From contig NC_092676.1 in the NCBI RefSeq assembly GCF_964355755.1, positions 6,554,288 to 6,618,287 on the forward strand: 64,000 nt of DNA, read 5' to 3'. The notes under the pieces are model-generated. The model did not search any database. It was not told where the DNA came from and saw only the letters and a list, made by a program, of their open reading frames with translations. Position numbers and translations under genes: made by a program. Shown here in pieces: positions 61,112 to 63,725 of this stretch. The stretch is from Antedon mediterranea (taxonomy: Eukaryota > Echinodermata > Crinoidea > Comatulida > Antedonidae). Every line of letters begins with the position of its first letter. The stretch's first letter is position 1.

Positions 61112-63725
61112 ATGAAGATATTTCTCTGTGTTTTACTTGTTGGTGTTTCGGTAGCAAAATCTAATCCGAAATGGGAGATGTTTAAAAAGACGTTTGGTAA
61201 GTTGAAAGTACTGTAATTTATATTTGGTATAACAAAAGAAAGCCCAGATGATAATTAAATTGTATATGTTTATGTCATTTTGAAAATTTCCAACGCGAAG
61301 TTTGCATCCTAGAGGAAATTAATGTATCTTCTTGTATTCTTCTTAGAAGTTTAAACATTAAAAATGTTCATTATTATCAAATTTGTTTTAACATAACTTT
61401 TGCCATATTTTGCCTGTAATCGTTTGATCAGTTTTGTCTTGTATCGTATGCAATGAAAAAGAAACTACTATTACTTTTAAACTATAGTTCGTGCTATGAT
61501 ATATTATTTGTTTTGTTGTCGTTCACTTTTAGTTATAACAAAACAAGGCCATATACATGGCTGGCCCAGTCGCGTGTTAAAATTTGAGGTGATTACTGAC
61601 CGACCGACCGACATAGTGAGCTATAGAGTCGCATTGTACGCGACTTAAAATATAACCATGTGTCTTTTAGTTGTTTGCAATACAAATAATGATTTAATTT
61701 GTACAATTAGGAAGTGTGGTTCTTTTAAACAAGGCCATATACATGAATGCAGTTGCGTGCGCAACTTTGAGTTAGTGTTTACCGACCGACAAACAGACCG
61801 ACCGACCATCAAACCAACCGATATATGTTAAAACCGTTTCCTACAATGTCTACTTGGCTTATTCCATTTTGCATATTAAATGGGAAACCCGCCATAAATA
61901 ATATTGGTTGTGAATCATATTGTCCTAATGATTACTGAACAAATATCAAATAAATGCGTTATGTATTTCCAGACAAAGCATACACCGCAGAAGAGGAAAT
62001 ATACCGCCGATCTGTATTTGAAGACAACCAGAAGTTCATTCAAAAACACAACGCCGAATTTGAAAAAGGACTTCACACTTATACTGTCGGTATCAACAAG
62101 TTTGCTGATCTGGTAAGTATTTAGGGCGCTATAAAATTAATTTACGCTGAAATTATGTTACAATCATAGCACCCGAAGGACATACCATGAATTATATTTT
62201 TATCGACTTCAAAGTATTATACGTATGAAACGCCATGTGTGCCAAAATATTTATCCTTTTAGAAATATTAATTCGATTAAGTAGGCACCATGGTAGGCAT
62301 AATTCGATTTCCACCACAGCTTAGTTCACATTGTATGTTGTATACTGGATCTACTTAACATTACATTAATGATTTAAACCTGGCTAATTCAACGCCGTCT
62401 AAAAATATATTCTAATTCAACAAGGAAACGGTAGGCTTATTTAAGTCGTATAACTCGTATTACATTTCCCCAAAGTTGTTTCAATTTGGAGTAGACCTAG
62501 CTATACGGTATTTATTTTGTAGACGGACGATGAATTTGTTTCATTTTTCCTTGGTTATTTAAAAATGAACACAACTACAGGAACAATGTATCAGGAGCCA
62601 AGTAATTTTAAAGCTCAAAATGCAGTAGACTGGACAAAACGGGGTTACGTCACACCTGTAAAAGACCAAGTAAGATTTTTGTTTTGTTTTTTGTTGGTTC
62701 TTCTCACTTTTATTTCTTCAACAATGTTGATGAACATGCTGTTCTGAACACAATACAGGCCTATATTCCATTTTTATACCTTTTAAAACTAGTTTTTAAA
62801 TGTCGTTTTCTGCTTTTAATTTTATTGTAGTTTCTATACCATTTTCCCCGTCGTATCATGCGTATTGGTTTTTGTACACTTACGCGTGCATGGTTCCCCA
62901 AAACGCATCACGATGACGTAAGCGCAACGCATAATTTATAATCATTAAGCGATGCCGCTTGTCATTAGTCGATTCGCTTGCGTCGGTGCTTGTGTTACGT
63001 TCTAGTGGGTTACACGCAACGGCAAGTACTTTGACCAATCATAAACTACTATTCGTGTTATTCGCGCTTATGCTTAGCTAAATTACTGTTTACGTGCGTC
63101 GCGTGTACGTTAATAGTGAGTTTTAGATGTGCGACAACAACGATTAACTCATAACGATATTGCGTTTGTGTAGGCATGATGGACATGATGGTGGGATGGT
63201 GTAAAAACTGCTGTCACAAATTTTAACAACACAATTTGTAATCATTTTTTATTTTTATAATGTTTGCATATTACATTGTTTCAAATCTTTTATTTTTCAA
63301 GAAATATTGCCAATCTGGTTGGGCATTTTCTGCAGTAAGTTGAAATTGTTCTCTATTTACTAAAGTGTTAGACATTTTGAGATCGTTATGATTATTGTAT
63401 ACTAATTGTTTTCGTTTTTACGTTATGATCTGTTATGATACTTGATTGAAGCTTTTGTCTTTCTAGTTACGCTTTAATTGTCTTTAATAATTACTGTTTG
63501 TATTATACAAATCATACCATTTTTTAAATACTGTAGGCTGGTTCTGTAGAAGGTCAGCATTTCAGGAGATCCTACAAATTAATCTCTCTCAGCGAACAGC
63601 AACTTATGGACTGTTCTCGAGACTACTCCAGTTGTTACAGTTCTAGGAGATATCCGGACGACGCTTTTAAATATATTAAAGCTCAAGGTATTGAATCAGA
63701 AAAAGACTACCCATATAAAGGACAG
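61112..63725 (+). CDS. Cathepsin L-like pseudoenzyme, gene C (5' part; continues past window end)
   Basis: Paralogue of genes A and B, with exons 61112-61196, 61973-62112, 62523-62669, 63302-63334 and 63537-63725 (198 residues); the His and Asn exons lie beyond the window. The signal peptide is MKIFLCVLLVGVSVAKS. The propeptide is well kept ([25 protein letters not shown]). The mature domain starts near [16 protein letters not shown]. The 33-base active-site exon reads KYCQSGWAFSA instead of [11 protein letters not shown]: papain-numbered Cys25 is Gly and Gly23 is Gln, while Cys22 and WAFS remain. In the next exon, GNMGCDGGL becomes SSCYSSRRY, losing the conserved Cys63 and the glycine pair of the substrate cleft. 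Frame, phases and splice sites are intact. It is either an expressed pseudoenzyme (compare soybean P34, also Cys to Gly) or an early pseudogene. Confidence 0.85.
61555..61835. repeat. Dispersed repeat pair (ACAAGGCCATATACATG / ACCGACCGACC)
   Basis: Two related blocks, at about 61555-61648 and 61730-61830, share AACAAGGCCATATACATG and ACCGACCGAC runs. The first has CTATAGAGTCGCATTGTACG plus CGAC. I recall similar motifs from other marine invertebrate genomes. They lie in intron 1 of gene C. Confidence 0.55.
62888..63010. mobile_element. MITE, family 2, degenerate
   Basis: GCATGGTTCCCCAAAACGCA at the left and TGTTACGTTCTAGTGGGTTA at the right, with GCTTGTCATTAGTCGATTCG inside. Intron 3 of gene C, about 290 bases upstream of the altered active-site exon. 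Confidence 0.6.

Follow-up and report, generated by a model that had tools for sequence, protein, structure and literature searches.

Several papain-fold proteins have roles other than proteolysis, among them TINAG, the silicateins and soybean P34; in silicatein, Cys25 is replaced by Ser. Dead cathepsins L and B are already known from families that also have active members (PMC7054455, PMC8583781, PMC8956072). The description of TrCB1.6 from Trichobilharzia regenti reports a Cys29-to-Gly substitution, processing in trans by active paralogues and a weak complex with chicken cystatin (PMC7054455), and both this protein and Sl-CathL-CS of the sugarcane weevil Sphenophorus levis have been proposed as cystatin traps (PMC7054455, PMC8583781). 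On the side of the prodomain, I29 proteins are reported to inhibit cathepsin L-type enzymes, with CTLA-2alpha also stabilising cathepsin L at neutral pH (PMC4089206), and an account of the Colorado potato beetle describes I29-only genes in a species whose cathepsins have also expanded greatly (PMC5792627). Here, we analyse a cathepsin L-like gene, gene C, and its siblings, starting from a window of 64,000 nucleotides (the whole stretch of DNA under study) on contig C7 of a 354-Mb eukaryotic genome of 18 contigs.

Structure of gene C and replacement of its nucleophile

Gene C starts at window position 61112, with exons 1-5 inside the window and exons 6-8 beyond it:

Exon 1, 61112-61196, forward strand: signal peptide-like start and beginning of the prodomain; GT donor, phase matching the siblings
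Exon 2, 61973-62112, forward strand: core of the I29 prodomain, 37-41 of 46 residues identical to each of six siblings
Exon 3, 62523-62669, forward strand: prodomain tail and start of the mature domain, as far as Gln19
Exon 4, 63302-63334, forward strand: 33-base active-site microexon, KYCQSGWAFSA, with Cys25 replaced by Gly (GGT) and Gly23 by Gln
Exon 5, 63537-63725, forward strand: cleft segment C65-x-G67-G68 rewritten as S-x-R-R
Exons 6-8, C7:6620781-6620943, 6621458-6621569 and 6621875-6621971 (L001:5494-6684), beyond the window: open and in phase

The preliminary description had set the limit of the gene at 63725, which falls short: the true end is C7:6621971, equivalent to window position 67684 and 3.7 kb past the window. 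The eight exons encode 321 residues, and the joined frame of 322 codons including the stop shows no internal stop and no frameshift, with GT-AG borders at 7/7 introns. Thus, the open frame, intron phases, signal peptide-like start and I29 prodomain attributed to gene C from its first five exons are all kept, and the exons past the window are likewise free of stops and frameshifts and retain His163 (in LNHGVL) and Asn187 (in KNSWG). Pfam recovers the I29 domain (PF08246, 67.2 bits) and the papain domain (PF00112, 234.7 bits) in the protein and no third domain besides these. Its best solved match is a cathepsin L1 chain with its prodomain (E 6.4e-85). With an I29 prodomain followed by a papain-family domain, gene C fits peptidase family C1A and is of the cathepsin L type by descent. 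Rfam at its gathering score gave no match over the window. As to the affinity of the genome, a COX1 search gave no match, and one tektin scored 284.8 bits against the 8snb chain, a sea-urchin structure, as compared to 156.0 bits for the runner-up, a mammalian-type tektin-4; a second tektin, from the tektin-3 group, shows no such preference. Together with some 11 large contigs, a number that would suit a crinoid, this amounts to a tentative lead.

At the codon for Cys25 (human cathepsin L numbering throughout), gene C has GGT in place of the TGC of its siblings A, B, F and G, which bears out the Cys-to-Gly change first described for the microexon. Gene C keeps Gln19, Cys22, Ser24, Trp26, His163, Asn187 and Trp189; of the residues that mark an active cathepsin L, it has Gln19, His163 and Asn187 and bears Gly in place of Cys25. 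The nucleophile is therefore replaced in a gene that is otherwise complete and conserved, the defining combination of a pseudo-cysteine protease, and the papain-fold paralogue without a nucleophile is confirmed at the sequence level. We regard it as almost certain that the product would be non-catalytic.

A tandem array of seven cathepsin L-type genes

Searches with PF00112 and with protein C delineated a papain-family cluster at C7:6592502-6720380 that comprises seven gene models, A-G. The models were sought under the exon phases of gene C, and eight exons were recovered for each gene. Besides gene C, the following members are considered individually:

Gene A, 38215-41512, forward strand: active-site motif intact; microexon at 39606-39638
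Gene B, 49610-56150, forward strand: active-site motif intact; microexon at 52486-52518
Gene D, C7:6679490-6694644 (L009, L002, L003): microexon GLCGSGWAFST; Cys25 replaced by Gly
Gene E, C7:6697900-6703089 (L003, L004): microexon GQCDSSWAFSA; Cys25 replaced by Ser and Gly23 by Asp

The nucleophile is missing in three of the seven genes, namely C (Gly, GGT), D (Gly, GGC) and E (Ser, AGC). With Gly at position 25, C and D both depart from the silicatein substitution. Every exon of gene D is open, its introns are GT-AG and no lesion is seen; it retains Gly23 and the Cys65-Asn-Gly-Gly segment, and its prodomain retains all 30 residues that A, B, F, G and the outgroup O share. Stops, frameshifts and splice lesions are likewise not seen in C; E has one such lesion. 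Its exon-6 donor reads AT instead of GT, the next 80 bases contain seven GT dinucleotides, all out of phase, and use of the single in-phase GT inside the exon would delete 38 residues. Because of this broken donor and of the lack of a TATA-like run at the usual distance (see below), gene E is probably a pseudogene. The array thus appears to hold four active-looking genes, two dead genes without a visible lesion and one that is dead and decaying. Three orphan exon matches lie downstream, about 120-250 kb past C (exon 8 near 6744641, exon 6 near 6773844 and 6868011), with no active-site microexon in the 9-10 kb around each.

Over the whole protein, C is 66% identical to G and 58% to B, while its nearest sibling in exon 2 is B (41/46 residues). 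The proximity of its propeptide to gene B, which had been noticed at the outset, therefore stands for exon 2; it is less close in the exon-3 part, where C is changed at 3/8 invariant sites. The outgroup O is a separate cathepsin L gene on contig C2 with two introns fewer. In this C2 gene (L010, C2:36586800-36592799), the counterparts of array exons 1-2 are fused, as are those of exons 4-5; the two extra introns of the array genes set the active site apart as an exon of 33 bases.

A motif scan of the papain-family loci outside the array, with matches in stop-containing frames or on the wrong strand set aside, found the active-site motif in a plausible frame at 7/9 loci and no motif at L011 and L016. 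Five of the seven have Cys and two do not. One of these, at C11:4652000-4654500 (L014), has Ser in place of the nucleophile (GNCGSSWAFST); we take it to be TINAG-like, a label and lineage assigned from general knowledge. It resembles C in having a papain domain with the nucleophile replaced, and differs in having Ser and in lying on another contig. The other, at C11:7096438-7099052 (L015), is an unlinked gene with Gly at Cys25 (TTCTSGWAFAS) that retains NSWG and a His-containing VTHFALITGYG and is closely preceded by an I29 match, apparently another dead cathepsin-like zymogen outside the array.

The tree of the eight sequences (A-G and O) is weakly supported, so we give the test results for each grouping of the three genes. 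A single loss common to C, D and E was rejected by the AU test on codon trees with all exons (p = 0.005) and with exons 3-8 (p = 0.039); the more lenient SH test gave 0.016 and 0.081. The AU test also rejected a grouping of D with E (0.011 for all exons, 0.041 for exons 3-8), while C+D (0.067 and 0.23) and C+E (0.23 and 0.39) are compatible with the data. Since the grouping of all three is rejected and those of C with D or with E are not, at least two losses of Cys25 would be needed; the minimum is two and not three, on the assumption that Cys was never regained. The replacement of Asp162 by Asn, common to C and D, hints at either common descent or a common consequence of the loss of Cys25.

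A conserved element upstream of gene C

Upstream of the start codon, the following feature was identified:

Promoter-like element of gene C, 61046-61080, forward strand: TATA-like run from 61046, TCATTCA at 61074-61080

A TATA-like run precedes TCATTCA at -28 in C, -29 in B, -32/-30 in D, -36/-28 in F and -29 in G; gene A is without an exact TCATTCA, and gene E has no TATA-like run nearer than -106. The 60 bases before the ATG of gene C show 79-88% gapped identity to its six siblings, against 61-74% at -160 to -100. We infer that this element is the promoter of gene C, and its conservation suggests that the gene can be transcribed.

A rewritten cleft and a kept prodomain core

For mature-domain sites at which A, B, F, G and O agree, we compared cleft positions, listed from what is generally known of papain and cathepsin L, with all others. 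Gene C is changed at 7/17 cleft sites against 10/88 other sites (p = 0.006), as expected from the early claim that its changes are concentrated in the catalytic centre; the contrast weakens to 4/14 against 7/85 (p = 0.047) when segment 61-70 is left out. The same contrast is absent in D (3/17 vs 16/88, p = 1.0) and in E (2/17 vs 6/88, p = 0.61). Among the active controls, each compared with the others, the cleft and other changes number 2/19 and 8/96 in A, 1/18 and 10/98 in B, 0/17 and 6/94 in F, and 0/17 and 1/89 in G. On these counts, the cleft is most altered in gene C, whose wall carries G23Q, C65S, G67R and G68R, whereas D keeps Gly23 and the Cys-x-Gly-Gly segment.

The loss of Cys-x-Gly-Gly from exon 5, as originally described, holds for the aligned columns, in which Cys65-x-Gly67-Gly68 read Ser-x-Arg-Arg, with the qualification that a Cys sits at column 63, two residues upstream of the lost Cys65. 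It may form a shifted disulfide, Cys63-Cys22. The rewritten 61-70 segment may be the product of one event, for which compensating small indels are a candidate origin: the improvement obtained by allowing gaps in the alignment was matched by 23 of 2000 random-substitution controls in the comparison to G, and by 58 (E), 212 (A), 391 (F) and 516 (B) in the others.

In the prodomain, C departs from the residues common to A, B, F, G and O at 2/22 positions of exons 1-2 (both near the signal peptide) and 3/8 of the exon-3 prodomain, as compared to 17/105 in the mature domain; the corresponding counts are 0/22, 0/8 and 19/105 for D and 1/22, 0/8 and 8/105 for E. Without the outgroup, 6/15 invariant sites of the exon-3 prodomain are changed in C. 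Judged by these sites, gene C keeps the core of its prodomain and not its tail. The tail is the part of the prodomain that runs through the cleft. Its alteration in C therefore weakens a role as inhibitor, and the changed tail would suit a binder or chaperone better.

Recent gene conversion behind the conserved exons 1-2 of C was considered and rejected, since their dS to the six siblings (0.60-0.95) falls inside the span of values seen in the other exons. Low dS in exons 1-2 relative to later exons is seen in the pairs D-B (0.30 vs 0.56-1.51), G-B (0.30 vs 0.50-1.12) and D-G (0.35 vs 0.72-1.23); gene conversion may have affected the prodomain end among B, D and G, with C and A outside it. I29 domains are found at 10 places in the genome: the seven array genes, the C2 gene and two (on C10 and C11) adjoining papain-domain matches. 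None of the ten is a lone I29 domain, in an exon-by-exon search that can miss an I29-only gene. Gene C itself differs from a free I29 inhibitor in encoding a full mature domain.

Selection on gene C

A codon likelihood model written for this analysis gave an omega of 0.25 for the background, 0.45 for D, 0.38 for E and 0.51 for C; dN/dS had been put forward in the preliminary description as a check on gene C, and it lies below 1 over the whole gene (p = 0.003). Omega = 1 was also rejected for D (p = 0.0002) and E (p = 0.0001), and for the whole of gene C on two other trees (p = 0.0004 and 0.0015). With each gene as the single foreground, C lies above the background (p = 0.014) and D marginally so (p = 0.05), while none of the whole-gene controls A, B, F and G deviates at 0.05, the lowest p being 0.056 for G. 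A branch omega averages over the periods on either side of the loss and thus cannot alone prove constraint after it; the broken gene E still has 0.38.

Within gene C, residues 1-106 have an omega of 0.30 (p = 0.01 against 1) and are indistinguishable from the background (p = 0.62). The mature domain, at 0.60, is relaxed relative to the background (p = 0.006); against 1, it is borderline at p = 0.05, with 0.047 and 0.23 on two other trees. Its C-terminal half has 0.47, below 1 with p = 0.034, and its N-terminal half 0.70; in the comparison to background the latter stands at 0.72 vs 0.22 (p = 0.002). On the C branch, the prodomain and the whole mature domain do not differ significantly (p = 0.16); exons 1-2 (0.13) and exons 4-5 (0.67) do (p = 0.013), a contrast picked after the data had been seen. 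Regional values are noisy, because the prodomain of the active gene F is also relaxed (omega 0.69, p = 0.016 against background).

Possible roles of gene C

We tentatively favour the reading of gene C as a maintained non-catalytic zymogen, a pseudo-cysteine protease whose prodomain would act on its active siblings. That the gene is maintained by selection is probable; that the prodomain is its working part is a more tentative proposition. The protein, with its signal peptide-like start and presuming that the gene is expressed, would fold as a pro-cathepsin and, with Gly for Cys25, be unable to process itself; the active-looking siblings A, B, F and G could then cleave pro-C in trans. Its I29 core, nearly the same as that of the siblings, might dock on the active enzymes as an inhibitor or stabiliser, with the papain-fold body serving as a carrier. 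The trans-processing of the TrCB1.6 type and the inhibition of cathepsin L by I29 proteins furnish precedents for such a mode. Because the cystatin-entry part of C is rewritten and its I29 core is kept, we favour prodomain action for C and leave a decoy role for D. A wider proposal, that the array repeatedly turns active cathepsin L zymogens into prodomain carriers, with C as an intermediate that has an erased cleft and a kept I29 core and acts in trans as inhibitor or chaperone of its siblings, we consider doubtful; if true, C would show one route to free I29 inhibitors such as CTLA-2 and crammer.

These proposals have to be weighed against silencing, in which C would have lost its function with or shortly before Cys25 and be an early pseudogene still without a stop. 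The relaxed mature domain (0.60, with 0.70-0.72 in the N-terminal half) and the changed prodomain tail would both follow from it; its neighbour E, also without a nucleophile, combines the broken donor of exon 6 with the lack of a TATA-like run at the expected distance, and the orphan exons suggest that copies in the array do decay. Set against this, exons 1-2 are constrained, the TATA/TCATTCA element is present, and neither a stop or frameshift in the 966 coding bases nor a lesion at any of the 14 splice sites was seen. The best model that couples a neutral phase since the loss with the simulated chance of seeing no stop (indels being outside the model) falls short of a free omega by 4.1 log units in C and by 4.2 in D. 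For C, this best combined fit gives a no-stop chance of 3%; very short neutral phases raise it to as much as 60%, at the cost of a poorer fit to the substitutions (-3.9 to -5.1 log units). The fit disfavours a pseudogene while leaving room for a short, recent one, and we rate silencing as rather unlikely.

A decoy, in which mature C would soak up cystatin-type inhibitors and thereby spare the active siblings, draws on the retention of Trp26, His163, Asn187 and Trp189. However, it requires a cleft that is retained in all but the nucleophile, and in C the four altered positions of the cleft wall lie where we presume cystatin or substrate to make contact. D keeps all four in its sequence, including Gly23 and Cys65-Asn-Gly-Gly, and would be a better candidate than C for a cystatin or substrate decoy. 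TrCB1.6 (PMC7054455) and Sl-CathL-CS (PMC8583781) are reported to bind cystatin though dead, and a cystatin has been reported from a sea cucumber (PMC12027202); a cystatin-domain search of this genome came back empty, a weak counterargument as it lacked a positive-control match. For C, we judge a decoy improbable. Quite improbable, too, is that the papain-fold body has acquired a function in binding or structure that has nothing to do with inhibitors, of the kind known for TINAG, the silicateins or soybean P34: the C-terminal mature half keeps some constraint (0.47, p = 0.034 against 1), but Pfam gives only I29 and papain, and constraint in C is weakest in the N-terminal mature half. An assembly or base-calling error at the Cys25 codon might be suspected with one assembly only; yet the Gly23 codon also differs by two or three bases, further cleft codons are changed, the frame is open across eight exons, and D and E are substituted at the same codon. 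Such an error is thus very improbable.

Comparison with known systems

TrCB1.5 and TrCB1.6 share with C a Cys-to-Gly replacement in a papain-family zymogen, and are two dead members among six paralogues (PMC7054455). They are, however, of the cathepsin B type, and their description judges the pockets of TrCB1.6 intact save for the active-site residue and reports that reversion restores endopeptidase activity (PMC7054455). Transcription and a weak complex with chicken cystatin were shown as well (PMC7054455); in C, whose expression is presumed, the cleft wall is also rewritten. Sl-CathL-CS, like C, is of the cathepsin L type with the nucleophile gone; it differs in having Ser and not Gly, and its authors report expression in the midgut and a strong interaction with sugarcane cystatin (PMC8583781). 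TcLhom of Tribolium is a dead cathepsin L that is described as grouping with major digestive cathepsin L genes, in this case of an insect, unlike C (PMC8956072). CTLA-2alpha, crammer and BCPI resemble C in their I29 prodomain-type sequence, the core of which (exons 1-2) is its best-constrained part; unlike C, with its mature domain and changed tail, they are described as separate small proteins without a mature domain (PMC4089206).

Among the matches listed for CC-licensed PMC papers, as represented by titles and the starts of abstracts, there was no report of such an array, which in itself says little. The cited dead cathepsins L are described singly; here, one array combines active, dead and decaying members. 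What this array adds is the repeated loss of the nucleophile within a single cluster, together with a member that has a rewritten cleft and a kept prodomain core. The array thus provides a compact setting in which the loss of catalysis as decay can be compared with its loss as a repeated route to regulators, and gene C lets one ask whether free I29 inhibitors pass via a dead-zymogen stage.
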